From positions 3,162,001-3,226,000 of the forward strand of contig NZ_AP018441.1 of the NCBI RefSeq assembly GCF_009937975.1: a DNA stretch of 64,000 nucleotides. Reading direction: 5' to 3'. The stretch's first letter is position 1; every line of letters starts with the position of its first letter. This DNA comes from Undibacterium sp. YM2. GTDB lineage: Bacteria; Pseudomonadota; Gammaproteobacteria; Burkholderiales; Burkholderiaceae_D. Below the pieces are notes generated by a model. The model had not been told where the DNA came from. It worked only from the letters and a program-made list of their open reading frames with translations, and ran no database searches. Shown piece after piece: positions 2,135 through 28,000 of this stretch. A program made the translations under genes and the position numbers.

Positions 2135-3171
2135 TCTTCCAGCATTTCCATGACCACCATCTGGTAAAGCAGATTGGGCTGCAAGCTGATTTCCAGGGCG
2201 CAGGTATAAGTCAGCTTGATCACATGGTCGTCATTGCTTTCTATTGCCCTCTCAAACAAATCCGACCAGGAGCAGAGTTGCCTGTGTTTTACGCGCATGC
2301 GGCTTTCATACGCGGATTCCGGCACGAGCTTTGGTGCACCAACAGAGACGTAAGCTGCGCATAGCGCTACCCATAAATCTTGCAGCCTGCTGAACAGTGT
2401 TTTTTGATCGAGATAAAGCAGGACCTGTCTTGCCGCATTGACACCTGTGACTATGTGCAAGATCGTAAAGTCCCTGGTTTGTCCATAAGCTGAAATCGCC
2501 CAGAGCGCCAACTCATCCAAGAGATTTTCGGTGACAGGCATACCCGGTAAATTTTGCAAAAATTGCTCATCATTGACGACTGCACGCATTTTCTCTGCAA
2601 TCATCCTGCCTGGATAGGTTTTGCCTCTCATGCCTTGCGATAACTGATAAAAACCAGAGGCAACCAAGCTGGCTGCTGGTCGCGCTTTGATATCGATGCT
2701 GATAGCAAAGTTCGCGGCAACCAGTGCAGCGAGACTGGCAGCTATTTCCCCGTCATGCTCAGCTTGCAAACCATAGGCCAGCCGTATCAGTGCATGAAAG
2801 GCTGTTGTTGCGGGAGCGAATGGGACTATGGCCAATACTTCCCTGATGACTTCGCCTTTTCCTCGCTGCGCAATACGAATGGCAAAGCAGGATTGCAGGT
2901 CAGCAAAATGGTCTCTCTTGCCAAGGTAAGCCTGAAAGTCTTCGTACCTGATGGTTACAGCGGGAGGCAAGGCTGGCAAGGCATAAGTATCGCGCCAATG
3001 CGCAAAGAATTCCTGCAAACGTCTGTCACTCGCCCCCATGCCGGCAAGTGCGCACAAGGCCATGGGACAGTGGTTGGTGGTTCCTTTGCCATTCAGGGCG
3101 AACTCGCTGTTCTTGTCCAGCAAGTCCTTAAGAATCACATTACTGCACATCGCTGTTGTTGAAGCCGTCAT
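2110..3171 (-). CDS. Questin-oxidase-like protein (DUF4243 family)
   Basis: The protein has about 353 residues. Visible hallmarks of the questin oxidase-like family are 'NHCPMALCALAGMGA' near the N-terminus, 'YLGKRDHF', and 'ESNDDHVIKLTYTCALE' near the C-terminus. The fungal prototype does Baeyer-Villiger cleavage of an anthraquinone; bacterial members have no defined substrate. The open frame begins with GTG at 3177, but ATG at 3171 is preferred because a GGAGAG ribosome site ends six bases before it, and that site would abut the GTG. The gene is transcribed away from soxR and has a SoxR-type promoter, which suggests a redox-active aromatic substrate such as a quinone (inference). Confidence 0.8.
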   Translation of the reverse strand: MTASTTAMCSNVILKDLLDKNSEFALNGKGTTNHCPMALCALAGMGASDRRLQEFFAHWRDTYALPALPPAVTIRYEDFQAYLGKRDHFADLQSCFAIRIAQRGKGEVIREVLAIVPFAPATTAFHALIRLAYGLQAEHDGEIAASLAALVAANFAISIDIKARPAASLVASGFYQLSQGMRGKTYPGRMIAEKMRAVVNDEQFLQNLPGMPVTENLLDELALWAISAYGQTRDFTILHIVTGVNAARQVLLYLDQKTLFSRLQDLWVALCAAYVSVGAPKLVPESAYESRMRVKHRQLCSWSDLFERAIESNDDHVIKLTYTCALEISLQPNLLYQMVVMEMLEDQIESFAC

Positions 3172-3202
3172 TTGCACTCTCCATCGATAGTTGATGTGTT
3201 GT

Positions 3203-3233
3203 AGTATGCAAGTTCAAGTTAACTTGAAGTCAA
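3203..3233 (-). promoter_or_regulatory. SoxR-type promoter of the questin-oxidase-like gene
   Basis: On the minus strand a -35 hexamer TTGACT (3233-3228) and a -10 hexamer CATACT (3208-3203) are separated by 19 bases. SoxR-activated promoters have this overlong spacer, which SoxR shortens by twisting the DNA. The palindrome at 3213-3228 lies inside the spacer. Transcription should start near 3196, giving a leader of about 25 bases before the ATG at 3171. Confidence 0.85.
3213..3228. promoter_or_regulatory. SoxR operator palindrome
   Basis: TTCAAGTTAACTTGAA is a perfect 16-base palindrome. It carries the core CAAGTTAACTTG of the known E. coli SoxR site. It is in the 81-88 bp gap between soxR and the questin-oxidase-like gene. 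Confidence 0.88.
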
Positions 3234-3258
3234 ACACTTTTTTACACATTGGAGTGAA

Positions 3259-3732
3259 ATGATGGCTGATGCAAACAATACAAACCTGATCAGCATAGGT
3301 GAACTTGCCAAACGATCAGGCATCGCCGCCAGTGCTTTGCGCTTTTATGAAAGCCGTGGTTTGATTACCAGCGTGCGCAGTCCGGCGCAACGCCGCCAAT
3401 TCCCGCGTGAAGTATTGCGCCGCGTTGCATTTATCAAGGCGGCGCAAACAGCAGGGCTGACACTGGAAGAAATAGAAAATAGTCTGGCTACCCTGCCCGG
3501 CCAGCGGACGCCGACAAAGCAGGATTGGGAAAAGCTGTCAAGATCATGGCATGCCCTGATAGAAGAGCGCATCAGGTCATTGACAGCCTTGCGTGACCAG
3601 CTAAGTTCCTGTATAGGCTGCGGCTGCCTGTCGCTCAAATCCTGCGCGTTATATAACCCACAAGACATTGCCCATACCAGAGGTACTGGGCCGCGTTATT
3701 TAATGGGGGATAAATCTTCAAACCTGGTTTAA
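3259..3732 (+). CDS. soxR: Redox-sensing MerR-family activator SoxR
   Basis: SoxR is a [2Fe-2S] transcription activator switched on by oxidation through redox-cycling compounds. The N-terminal winged helix is clear ('ISIGELAKRSGIAASALRFYE', about residues 11-31). The iron-sulfur signature C-x2-C-x-C-x5-C is complete: Cys118, Cys121, Cys123 and Cys129. Length (157) matches the family. ATG occurs at 3259 and 3262; GGAG at 3251-3254 suits the second slightly better. No soxS is present, as is usual outside enterobacteria, where SoxR acts directly on oxygenase or efflux genes. The divergent neighbour with a SoxR promoter is the obvious target. The stop is 17 bases before the convergent rmuC stop. 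Confidence 0.95.
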   Translation: MMADANNTNLISIGELAKRSGIAASALRFYESRGLITSVRSPAQRRQFPREVLRRVAFIKAAQTAGLTLEEIENSLATLPGQRTPTKQDWEKLSRSWHALIEERIRSLTALRDQLSSCIGCGCLSLKSCALYNPQDIAHTRGTGPRYLMGDKSSNLV

Positions 3733-18221: not shown

Positions 18222-19268
18222 ATGTTATTGAAAATCGGTGAACTGGCCAGCCGCACTGGCCTGACCATACGCACACTGCATCACTACGACAAAATTGGCT
18301 TGCTCAAGCCATCTGCGCGCTCAGAGGCAGGATATCGCCTCTACGACAGGTCGGACATCAAACGCCTGCACCACATACAAGCCCTGCGCCGCCTGAATTT
18401 ATCGCTGGCAGAAGTGGGCGATGTCATCAACGGCGCTGGCAATGATTTGCACTTTGTCATAGACGAACAGATTTCTGGCCTGGATCAGCAGATAGCCCAG
18501 AGCATGGAGTTACGCGACAGGCTGCAACAATTGTCGGGCGTGTTGAAAGCCAAAAGCGAACCCAATCTGGAATATTGGCTTTCGACGCTGGAAATGATGA
18601 GTTTGATAGGCAAGTACTTCAGTCGCGATGAGATTTTGCACATGCGTGAACTGGAGCTACAGGCAAAAAGCAAGCTTGAAACTCACATGTCGCCCCTTAT
18701 CCAGGCAGCCAGGAGCTTGCTGGATCAAAAAACCTCACCGCTTGATCCTGTGGCCAAGCAATTGGCCAGGGAATGGGTGCTAGCCATGAGCCAGATCATG
18801 CCTGACCCCAGATTACTCAGCAAATTCACTTTGATGCACAGAAAAGAACCTTCACTGCAGTCATTAAGCGGTGTCGATGATGAGATGATGGACTTTATCA
18901 CCCAGGCATCAGTAGAGGTCAGGTACGACATTTACAGGAAACACCTGAGTGAAGAAGAACTGAAGTATTTCCGTCACTCCTTTTTTAAAAATGCCGAATC
19001 CTGGACCCGGGTCTTTTCTGAAGTGAGACAGAAAATGGCCCTGAACCTGCCACCCGAACACCCGGACGTGCAAGCCATTTTAATCAAGTGGCGCACCCTG
19101 TTCATGGACGCCTGGGGTAACCATCTGCCCACCATGCTCAAGGTCAGGAGCATCCATGAAAAAGAGCCCGAGCTAAGTATAGGAGGCGGATTAACGCCAT
19201 CCATCATTGCCTACGCTCGCCAGGGATTGGCAATTCTCGAAAAGAATTACCCCATGAAGCAGAATTGA
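18222..19268 (+). CDS. MerR-family regulator with TipAS-like effector region
   Basis: The N-terminal winged helix is clear: 'LLKIGELASRTGLTIRTLHHYDKIGLLKPSARSE' (split here for length) with the second wing 'AGYRLYDRSDIKRLHHIQALRRLNLSLAEV'. A dimerisation helix follows (about 75-115). The C-terminal 230 residues are mostly helical and resemble the ligand-binding domain of TipA-like regulators, which bind varied drugs. Length (348) is longer than classic MerR (about 130-270). It has a MerR-type promoter of its own. It ends 11 bases before an MFS gene, so the pair is likely a drug-sensing efflux operon (inference). Confidence 0.88.
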   Translation: MLLKIGELASRTGLTIRTLHHYDKIGLLKPSARSEAGYRLYDRSDIKRLHHIQALRRLNLSLAEVGDVINGAGNDLHFVIDEQISGLDQQIAQSMELRDRLQQLSGVLKAKSEPNLEYWLSTLEMMSLIGKYFSRDEILHMRELELQAKSKLETHMSPLIQAARSLLDQKTSPLDPVAKQLAREWVLAMSQIMPDPRLLSKFTLMHRKEPSLQSLSGVDDEMMDFITQASVEVRYDIYRKHLSEEELKYFRHSFFKNAESWTRVFSEVRQKMALNLPPEHPDVQAILIKWRTLFMDAWGNHLPTMLKVRSIHEKEPELSIGGGLTPSIIAYARQGLAILEKNYPMKQN

Positions 19269-19279
19269 AGGAAAACAGT

Positions 19280-20593
19280 ATGAACGAAATAAACAAGAAT
19301 ACAGCCGACAGCAAGCCCAAGGGCATATTCAAGGACAGCAATTTCCTCTGGATGATAGGCGGCGGCGCGATCTCCATGCTGGGTGACCAATTTACTTTAA
19401 TCGCCCTGCCCTGGCTTGTCCTGAAGATGACTGGTGATACCCTGATACTCGGCATCGTGCTGGCATTGATCAGCGTGCCGCGCGCATTATTGATATTGCT
19501 GGGTGGAGCAGTGGTCGATCGCTACTCGCCCAAGACTGTGATGATGCAAACCAAATACATCAATACACTGCTACTGGGTATATTGAGTGCCCTGATTTTT
19601 TACGGCAAACTGGAATTATGGATGGTCTATGCGCTGGCCCTGGGTTTGGGTATATCGACAGCCTTCAGCATACCTTCAGGTACATCGATGTTGCCGCGTG
19701 TCGTACAGCCATCACAATTGCAGCCAGCAAATGGCATCATGCTGGGCATGCGTCAGTTGACCATGTTCATCGGCCCCGTACTGGCGGGTCTGTTGATCGC
19801 CCTGTTTGGTACGCAAGAAAGTGGCATGGTCCATGATGCGCAAGGCCTGGCAGCAGCATTTTTCTTTGACTGTTTTACCTATGCTTTTTCAGCCTGGACA
19901 CTGAGCAAGGTCAGGATGAATGAAGGCATGCCAGCATCACCTGGCGCAACACCTGCAGCACAAAAACCGGCACTGCTGAAGTCTCTCTCAGAAGGTTTGC
20001 GTTATTGCTGGAATGAGAAACAACTGCGTAGCTGCTTTATCTATTGGGCGGCAATCGCTTTCTTCATCATGGGGCCAATACAGATTGCCCTGCCGGTGAT
20101 GGCAAACCAGCTCAGCAATAGTGCCAGCGCACTGGGCTTACTGGCAGGCTCACACGGTGCAGGCACCTTATTGGGCATGGCACTGGCAGCCATGAAGCCC
20201 AATCTGCGCTTTGGCAACCTTGGCCGCACTATCCTGCTGGTCGATTTTCTGGTCGGCATACTTTTCGCACCCATGGGCCTGATCAGCGCAAGCTGGCAAG
20301 GGGCACTGATTTTGCTAAGCGTGGGCATACTCGGTGGTTTCTTGCATGTGGCCGTATTTACCTGGGTACAAAAACAGGTACCGCCACATATGATAGGTCG
20401 CGCCATGAGCATGTTCATGTTTATCTTCATGGGCATAGGGCCGGTCTCTGCTGCTTTCACAGGCTGGCTACTGCGAAGCATCACGATACCGCAATTGTTC
20501 ATGGGTAGTGGCAGCTTGCTGATCCTGATCGTCATCACTGCAACACAGTTCAGCCCTATCGCCACCGTGACAGACAAAAGGGCTGCTGCATAG
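19280..20593 (+). CDS. MFS transporter (efflux type)
   Basis: The product has about 437 residues with 11-12 predicted membrane helices. It resembles the MFS_3/EntS-like exporters: 'ISMLGDQFTLIALPWLVL' in helix 1, 'SVPRALLILLGGAVVDRYSPK' in helices 2-3 with the conserved loop, and a central cytoplasmic loop at about 205-225. The frame extends to a TTG at 19265 inside the end of the MerR gene; ATG at 19280 is favoured by AAGGAAAACAGT directly upstream. It is translated from the same message as the MerR regulator. Substrate is unknown. Confidence 0.9.
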   Translation: MNEINKNTADSKPKGIFKDSNFLWMIGGGAISMLGDQFTLIALPWLVLKMTGDTLILGIVLALISVPRALLILLGGAVVDRYSPKTVMMQTKYINTLLLGILSALIFYGKLELWMVYALALGLGISTAFSIPSGTSMLPRVVQPSQLQPANGIMLGMRQLTMFIGPVLAGLLIALFGTQESGMVHDAQGLAAAFFFDCFTYAFSAWTLSKVRMNEGMPASPGATPAAQKPALLKSLSEGLRYCWNEKQLRSCFIYWAAIAFFIMGPIQIALPVMANQLSNSASALGLLAGSHGAGTLLGMALAAMKPNLRFGNLGRTILLVDFLVGILFAPMGLISASWQGALILLSVGILGGFLHVAVFTWVQKQVPPHMIGRAMSMFMFIFMGIGPVSAAFTGWLLRSITIPQLFMGSGSLLILIVITATQFSPIATVTDKRAAA

Positions 20594-25055: not shown

Positions 25056-28000
25056 ATGTTAGCGATACTCATGTTCGAGCTGCGTCAGAAGTCGCGCAGT
25101 CTTTCTACTTATGTCTATTTTCTGGTTTTTTTCAGTCTGGCCCTGCTCTGGATGGCGGCTGCCGGCGGTGTATTTCCCGGTGTTTCCATAGGCTTTGGCG
25201 GCAAGGTCAATGTCAACGCACCGGTAGCAGTTTTTCAGAGCATCACCTTTCTTGGTTATCTGGGCATCAGCACAGTCGCGGCCTTGATGGGGCAGGCAAC
25301 ACATCAGGACATAGAACATCATACCTGGCATTTTTTCTATAGCGCCCCCATCAGTAAATTCCAATATCTTGCGGGCCGCTTTTCTGGTGCGCTGCTGACT
25401 TCCATCATTATCTTTTCTGGTCTTGGCCTGGGCGCATGGCTGGGTTGTTATCTGCCGGGTCTGGAGGCCGTCAGGCTGGGGCCAGTGCAAGCCCTGTCTT
25501 ATCTGATGCCTTATCTGTATGCGATATTGCCAAATTTTATTATTTTTGGTGGCATTTTCTTTACCCTGGGGGCACTGAGCCGCCGCATGATGCCGGTGTA
25601 TGTATCCAGCGTGCTGTTGATTATTGGCTACCTGGTCGCCCGTTCATTGCGGGCTGATCTGGATAACAAGACCATGGCCGCCCTGCTTGATCCTTTTGGT
25701 TCCTCTGCCGTCAGCATGGTGACTGAATACTGGAGCATCGCCGACAAGAATACCCGCGAGATTACGCTGGATGGTGTATTCCTGATTAACCGTCTGATCT
25801 GGCTGGTTCTTGGCTTCGCCAGTCTGGCGCTATGCTACTGGCGCTTTCAATTCGCTACCGTCAATACGGCTGGCAAACAAAAGAAGGATCAGGCCACAGC
25901 TACCCTTGTCCTTATCCAGCCGCAAAAAGTCACGCCGAATTTCGCCAATAGCCGCAACTGGAAATTGCTGTATGCCGAGAGCATGCTGAATCTGCGTGAG
26001 TCAGTCAAAAACGTGTATTTCATTGTCATGCTATTGGCAGGCGTCTTGTTCATGTTCGCAGTTTCCAGTTCCATCACCAAGATGTTTGGCACACCCACTT
26101 ATCCCGTGACTTATGCTGTGCTGGAAATCCTCAGCGGCAGCTTCGGGATCTTCATGCTTGCGATTACCACTTTTTATGCTGGCGAACTGGTATGGCGCGA
26201 ACGGGATGCACGTATTGCGCAATTGCTTGATGCACTGCCGATACCGAATTACCTGCCTTTCACTGCGAAACTGATTGCACTGATCGTTTTGCAAGGCATC
26301 ATGCTGTTTGTACTGATGTTGTGCGGCATCCTGATACAGACGGTAAAGGGCTACACCAATTATGAGCTGACCCAGTATCTGCAGCAATTGTTCCTGATGC
26401 AGTGGCCGGACTATGCCTTGCTGGCAGTACTTGCGATTTCCTTGCAAGCCATCGTCAATCACAAATACCTGGCTTACTTTTTGATCGTACTGTATTACGC
26501 AGCTACGATAGCCCTGCCTGCACTGGGTATCGAACATCCGATGTTCCGCTATGGAATCACTCCAGCATTCACCTATTCAGACATGAATGGCTATGGTCAC
26601 ATGCTGGCTCTTTCGCGCTGGTATCTGGCTTATTGGACAGGTGCCGCCCTGATACTGGTCAGCCTGTCACTGATGATGTGGGTACGCGGCACGACTACTG
26701 ATTTTCGCCTGCGCTTGCGTTCTGCGAAACAGGCTTTCAAAGGCGGCAATGTCATTTTGCTCGCGTCTGGCAGTTGCCTCTTTGTGTTGACTGGCGCTGC
26801 GATCTTTTATTTCACTAACGTCCTCAATACTTACCAAAACCAGTTTGCGCAACAGACTGACAATGCCCAGTATGAAAAACGCTATAAACAATATGCCAGC
26901 CAGGCACAGCCACGTATCAGTGACGTCAAACTGAACGTCGATCTTTATCCTGAAACCCGTAGCGCCCATATCAAAGGCAACTATCAATTAATCAACCGCA
27001 GCAAGCAGGCGATACAGGAAATATTTATCACGCAAAAAGAAGATATCGATATTATCAAGATGGAATTTGATCTTGCCAGTGAAAAGAATATTGCCGATGG
27101 CAAGCTGGGATTCCATAGCTACAAGCTGAAAAAACCGCTGGCAGAGGGCGAGAAACTGACGCTCAATTTTGAGCTCAATATCAAGCCCAAAAACTTCCTG
27201 GGCATGAGCCAGGGCAGCTACCTTTATTACAATGGCAGCTTCTTCAACAGCACGCTCTTACCCCACATAGGTTATCAAGCCGCACTGGAACTGCGGGAAG
27301 ACAAAACCAGGCGCGAACAGGGCTTGCCTGAAAAAGAAAGAATGGCTGAAACCGATGATCCCAAGGCATTGGAAAACAGCTATATCGCCAATGACGCTGA
27401 CTGGATCAATTTTGATGCGGTGGTTTCAACTTCTGCAGATCAGATGGCCGTTGCGCCTGGCACCTTAAAACGCCAGTGGCAAGAACATGGCCGTCATTAT
27501 TATCAATACGTGCCTGAACAGCCCATCTTGAATTTTATGCTTTCCTGTCAGGTCGTTATGAAGTAAAAAAGGCGCAATGGCATGACATTCCTATAGAAAT
27601 CGATTACCACAAAGGGCATGAATATAATCTGGACCGCATGGTAAAGGGCGTACAAAAATCGCTGGATTACTACACGCAGAATTTTGGCCCTTACCAGCAC
27701 AAACTGGTCCGTATCATTGAGTTTCCGCGTTACGCGAGATTTGCCCAGGCTTTCCCTAACACCATACCGTTTTCAGAAAGCATAGGTTTCATTGCCCGCG
27801 TTGATGACAATAATCCCAAGGAAGTGGATTATCCCTTCTATGTGACAGCACATGAGGTCGCCCATCAATGGTGGGCACATCAGGTCATCTCGGGTAACAG
27901 CAAGGGTGGCACAGTCCTCGTAGAAACCCTGGCGCAATATTCTGCATTGATGGTCATGAAGCATACCTATGGTGATGCAACCATGCGCCGCTTTCTGCAG

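Follow-up and report, generated by a model that had tools for sequence, protein, structure and literature searches.

The locus described here lies in a 64-kb stretch of the genome of Undibacterium sp. YM2 (assembly G000, 6.66 Mb), which we call the window, and consists of a soxR gene placed head to head with a gene for a questin-oxidase-like protein of the PF14027 family (Table 1). Judged by sequence comparison, the regulator is a true SoxR. It scores 204.7 bits against the TIGR01950 equivalog model, for which the curated cut-off is 116.9, it is matched by the structure of E. coli SoxR (2zhg) with E 3e-40, and its four [2Fe-2S] cysteines (CxGCxC...C) align with those of the E. coli protein. 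The oxidase exceeds the PF14027 cut-off by a wide margin (86.5 bits vs 27), and its closest named relatives are those of Undibacterium. The gap between the two start codons is 87 bp, not the 88 bp given in the first-pass annotation, an earlier reading of the same DNA.

Table 1. Features of the soxR-oxidase locus, with positions in the window (aa, amino acids)
Feature	Position	Strand	Sequence or basis
PF14027 questin-oxidase-like gene, 353 aa	2110..3171	-	Predicted metal ligands H34, H126, H239, H316, K319
Likely ribosome-binding site GGAGAG of the oxidase gene, before ATG 3171	3177..3182	-	Read by eye from the sequence
Predicted SoxR-type promoter of the oxidase gene: -35 TTGACT (3233-3228), 19-bp spacer, -10 CATACT (3208-3203)	3203..3233	-	Sequence, conservation; minus strand 3233-3203 is TTGACT-TCAAGTTAACTTGAACTTG-CATACT
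Perfect 16-bp palindrome TTCAAGTTAACTTGAA, predicted SoxR operator (R-clade form)	3213..3228	none	Sequence comparison
soxR, 157 aa	3259..3732	+	Iron-sulphur motif CIGCGCLSLKSC; recognition helix SALRFYE

The first-pass annotation had placed in this gap a SoxR promoter pointing to the oxidase gene and not to soxR, and the -35 and -10 elements, the 19-nucleotide spacer and the perfect palindrome that it described are all present. The palindrome, which was said to lie inside the spacer, does so for 15 of its 16 bases; the outermost one doubles as the final base of the -35 element. The proposed orientation agrees with the finding that the 31-base promoter, when read toward soxR, matches poorly (22 of 31 positions), and that a scan of positions 3100-3300 found no sigma-70 promoter with a spacer of 16-18 bp. 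The classical outer bases CC...GG are replaced here, the operator being CTTCAAG...CTTGAAC and not CCTCAAG...CTTGAGG. Since this form is the usual one in the SoxR clade with arginine in the recognition helix (the R clade, described below), we regard the operator as a variant and its outer bases as no sign against function.

The bare core TCAAGN4CTTGA does not exceed chance across the 6.66 Mb of the genome, where 3 sites stand against 5 of its reversed control. In the window, matches to a classical CCTCAA-type pattern allowing 3 mismatches at most are also at chance level (4 found, 7.5 expected). The full palindrome occurs only once in the window. When the core was combined with the promoter elements, the genome contained 1 site at 0 mismatches and 10 at up to 3, and the reversed control gave 2. 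Apart from the exact site, one is convincing: it has 2 mismatches and adjoins a second soxR gene. Another 2-mismatch site (L049) lacks soxR in its listed flanks, and L053 was the one inspected among the seven sites with 3 mismatches. A 31-base pattern modelled on this promoter gave 15 matches in 10 chosen genomes, and a looser box pattern gave 24 matches in 19 of 300 genomes of the order; the reversed control gave 0 in both cases, which rules out a box that arose by chance. The looser pattern is not specific to SoxR, because only 13 of its 24 matches are SoxR-type sites and 6 of the remaining 11 stand beside other MerR regulators.

Boxes close to TTGACTTGAAGTTGACTTCAACTT precede a similar protein of 163-166 amino acids at seven loci (L126, L131, L136, L138, L139, L141, L144), and at five of them inspection by eye shows a MerR regulator that lacks the SoxR cysteine motif. 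These boxes apparently belong to another MerR circuit and were set aside, the regulators seen there lacking that motif.

Conservation of the promoter and its co-occurrence with SoxR

The promoter precedes the oxidase gene in all 12 related loci found, with 26-31 of its 31 bases identical, and the 19-base spacer, whose conservation had been proposed as a check on the first-pass annotation, is thus kept in relatives. At five of these loci (L004-L007, L015) soxR is head to head with the oxidase gene; one of the five, L005 from U. pigrum DSM 19792, matches the window at all 31 bases of the box. In the other seven, from Collimonas (L008-L014), the flanks retrieved contain no soxR, but 27-30 of the 31 promoter bases are kept. 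These Collimonas loci rule out a box that serves soxR alone. In that explanation the box would only autoregulate soxR and the oxidase gene would be an accidental neighbour, which we find scarcely credible, the box also being oriented to the oxidase gene. What speaks for it is a palindrome of the TTCAAG...CTTGAA type, seen by eye before soxR in five of six Collimonas loci where the oxidase gene is unlinked (L032 has none), and because of these palindromes autoregulation is likely as well. Over an alignment of 17 loci the information content is 1.70 bits per position in the box, 0.38 upstream and 0.50 downstream. Since these loci were chosen for having the box and include near-copies, with the box-less L019, L021-L024, L026 and L027 excluded, the alignment shows where conservation ends and not how frequent the box is.

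PF14027 genes are present in 12 of the 300 genomes of the order and in 18 of 145 genomes of the family, which makes 28 genomes in total, two being shared. A box matching at least 24 of 31 positions lies within 350 bases upstream of the PF14027 gene in 16 of them, and the other 12 score 18 or less; the cut-off was chosen after the scores were seen, no score falling between 18 and 24. An R-clade SoxR is present in all 16 boxed genomes and in none of the 12 box-less ones (Fisher p 3e-8, kinship ignored; three genomes in the test, G312, G403 and G342, are less than 85% complete). The R-clade soxR is within about 430 bases of the PF14027 gene in 12 of the boxed genomes, and the four in which it is elsewhere all belong to one genus (g2), probably Collimonas. 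Among the box-less genomes, three (G297, G406, G433) carry only the other SoxR clade and in nine no SoxR was found at E 1e-25. A close relative of the oxidase (L066, 44% identity) is likewise box-less, and no SoxR was found in its genome, which is 82% complete. The conserved box and its co-occurrence with one SoxR clade strongly support the direct control of the oxidase gene by SoxR that the first-pass annotation had suggested.

Two SoxR clades and their targets

The SoxR sample from the order comprises 25 loci from 22 of the 300 genomes, with at most 12 candidates scored per genome. A tree of 42 SoxR proteins splits into 26 and 16 with support 100/99; the tree software flagged long branches that join (L072, L110 and two others). 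The 26 proteins of the R clade have arginine in the recognition helix, as in SALRFYE, and boxes mostly of the form TTGACTT-N-AAG...CTT-N-AACTT, while the 16 of the other clade comprise 15 with histidine and one with arginine (L097), and have boxes mostly of the form TTGACCTCAAG...TTGAGG. Outer box positions were counted in 44 rows less 4 with box scores below 22 and 2 duplicates, which leaves 38 distinct protein-box pairs. Arginine proteins go with A at the right position in 25 of 26 and T at the left in 23 of 26, and histidine proteins with G at the right and C at the left in 12 of 12. L097, the arginine protein that groups with the histidine clade, has a half-classical box and departs from the pattern at the right position. 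As a single split of the tree explains this clade-level correlation, the residue is a clade marker and not proof of cause, and in view also of L097 we do not claim that it brought about the change of operator. The scan covered two box forms, so that a third would be missed. The loose pattern matched at least once in all 11 genomes of the order that have an R-clade SoxR. Residue-base correlations in MerR-family proteins have been described (PMC5045206); the portions of that paper available to us include a figure of heavy-metal subfamilies, and no SoxR clades were seen there. Two clades with distinct boxes would sharpen the prediction of SoxR regulons in Burkholderiales.

The second soxR of the Undibacterium genome (G000:C1:4358435-4358851, L028) belongs to the histidine clade, is divergent from a SnoaL-like gene and carries the box TTGACCTCAAGTTAAGTTGAGGTTTTACACT, so that the two SoxR genes of this genome differ in their boxes. 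Both have a single divergent target and a SoxR promoter with a 19-bp spacer; they differ in clade (a histidine helix and a TTGACCTCAAG...GTTGAGG box in L028) and in target.

At four of 11 R-clade loci of the order (L035-L038) the divergent gene is a PF14027 gene. At L108 and L109 the R-clade SoxR faces a protein of 425-431 amino acids from a large family with no Pfam domain or NCBIfam name (L108:2019-3314, L109:2011-3288), which stands under an R-clade box and has a predicted BTG13-like fold with four conserved histidines and a lysine. Other partners are a glyoxalase-like gene (L106), an MFS transporter (L112) and a permease 318 bases on (L110). L030 and L111 have no clear partner, and in the genome of L030 the oxidase gene is elsewhere under its own box (L017). 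A second R-type box precedes a GntR/UTRA-MFS gene pair in five of 10 genomes (G007, G300, G304, G412, G425), the pair being Pfam-tested in L080 and L084 and named by eye in the others. In five Collimonas-like genomes (L080, L081, L082, L084, L092) an R-type box lies between a gene that by eye is urocanate-hydratase-like and the GntR/UTRA and MFS pair.

With more doubt than confidence, we suggest that Burkholderiales may have a separate SoxR clade that reads an operator code of its own and runs a detoxification circuit independent of the classical SoxR in the same cell. Its hallmark targets would be questin-oxidase-fold iron oxygenases from two families, between which no sequence similarity was detected. 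These enzymes would destroy redox-cycling (hydro)quinone-type poisons, with efflux pumps as backup. An oxygenase-plus-pump set of this kind (boxes before the GntR-MFS pair in five genomes, and the MFS gene of L112) resembles the SoxR regulon of Pseudomonas aeruginosa as outlined in the accessible parts of PMC4146615, which includes the monooxygenase PA2274 and two transporters. In that account SoxR of P. aeruginosa and Streptomyces coelicolor likewise has redox enzymes and pumps as direct targets; the difference is that SCO1909 resembles ActVA-ORF6 and PA2274, whereas the oxygenase here has a BTG13-type fold.

As a separate observation, a second R-type box in G133 (L129) precedes a gene that by eye resembles an RND pump membrane-fusion protein.

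The oxidase and its proposed role

The first-pass designation of the enzyme as questin-oxidase-like fits its match to the fold of BTG13, with the four histidines and the lysine of the predicted metal site in place. We take these residues to be the BTG13 metal site; BTG13 itself holds iron and a carboxylated lysine. Compared with the BTG13 questin oxidase (7y3w), the PaD hydroquinone dioxygenase (8z4q) and AflY (8yxs), the window oxidase is about 90-110 residues shorter, and it stands under a SoxR-type promoter.

The tested soxR-mfsA pair of Stenotrophomonas maltophilia has the same architecture, namely head-to-head genes with one operator in a 19-bp spacer (there between TTGACC and CATGCT), and SoxR activates the target from that spacer and represses its own gene, according to the sections of PMC4411124 consulted. 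That pair has an efflux pump as its target and CCTCAACTGCAGTTGAGG as its operator, in contrast to the PF14027 enzyme and the CTTCAAG...CTTGAAC operator here. Because the architecture is equal, we infer activation and self-repression for the window pair as well. Our results probably reflect a switch in which SoxR turns on a PF14027 oxygenase that destroys an external redox-cycling aromatic compound, a single operator between the divergent genes serving both. SoxR with its [2Fe-2S] cluster would sit in the over-long spacer of the oxidase promoter; a redox-cycling compound would oxidise the cluster, SoxR would then untwist the DNA and the oxidase gene would be turned on, while transcription of soxR would probably be limited by the same bound dimer. 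The oxidase would be a non-haem iron enzyme, and most likely oxygenates with O2, and so destroys, a (hydro)quinone-type redox cycler that enters from outside. The substrate may be a quinone whose ring the enzyme opens, as the first-pass annotation proposed.

Several observations weigh against this reading. PF14027 genes lack the SoxR box in 12 of the 28 genomes, and the family is rare in the phylum (4 of 398 genomes at E 1e-8, two already in the set), where both new loci, outside the order, are box-less (L077 16/31, L079 14/31), as are both Rhizobium plasmid loci examined (14 and 15 of 31). The family is therefore not tied to redox stress everywhere. The window oxidase has 16-17% identity to the solved enzymes of the fold, and Rhizobium homologues align serine to K319. 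BTG13, PaD and AflY have histidine at BTG13 position 58, the residue changed in the BTG13 structure 7y3x, and the window oxidase has methionine (Met37), as do 120 of 120 listed homologues at that position. By this mark the enzyme does not rank as a true questin oxidase, and its exact chemistry may differ.

Two of these features, the low identity and the methionine, also speak for a different explanation, in which SoxR controls the gene and the substrate is not a quinone. Examples would be an electron-rich aromatic, phenazine-like or otherwise, and a damaged metabolite of the cell, and the name of the enzyme would reflect its fold only. Two Rhizobium relatives point the same way and suggest varied substrates: their genes lie immediately before an amidohydrolase-family gene, with no SoxR. 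The three solved proteins of the fold (six entries) are, however, named questin oxidase, hydroquinone dioxygenase and non-heme iron dioxygenase, and the quinones plumbagin and menadione are among the SoxR inducers given in the portion of PMC4411124 seen. We regard a non-quinone substrate as possible if rather unlikely.

The first-pass annotation, whose view of SoxR control, spacer and fold agrees with our results, had further supposed that the organism meets or makes a quinone. Meeting one is the more likely, and nothing favours making one. A tailoring step for a redox-active metabolite of the organism itself, sensed by SoxR as with actinorhodin or phenazines, would have precedent in S. coelicolor and P. 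aeruginosa, whose SoxR regulons answer their own antibiotics and include tailoring-like enzymes (PMC4146615, in the parts available). Here the oxidase gene otherwise stands alone, GGDEF and RmuC genes adjoining the pair, inspection by eye of the listed flanks of relatives showed no adjoining biosynthetic cluster, and a genome search for polyketide synthases, which covered type III only, found none. Such a role is improbable, and synthesis of its own quinone has no support.

The destruction of external redox cyclers remains the reading we prefer. The box is kept before the oxidase gene even where soxR has moved away, and these bacteria may thus destroy redox-active poisons. A sensor of known inducers would be linked to an enzyme family that, by the titles and abstracts matched by "questin oxidase", is discussed in fungi, and bacterial PF14027 proteins would gain a testable role in the destruction of redox-cycling aromatics. 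The literature search found no paper joining SoxR with "questin oxidase", and among the DUF4243 matches listed none is on SoxR by title or abstract.

A plasmid origin of the locus was also considered and rejected, since no plasmid record matched the 151-bp promoter region and the two Rhizobium plasmid loci examined lack soxR and box; the oxidase protein matched 84 plasmid records, all from Rhizobium and all below 60% identity. On the Rhizobium plasmids L058 and L059, which have no soxR there, the PF14027-like gene overlaps the downstream amidohydrolase-family gene by 4 bases.

Elsewhere in the window, positions 25056-27566 hold an open reading frame of 836 amino acids with no Pfam match at E 1e-10, and at 18222-20593 the gene for a long MerR-family regulator (348 amino acids) overlaps an MFS transporter gene, possibly forming a drug-sensing efflux pair.
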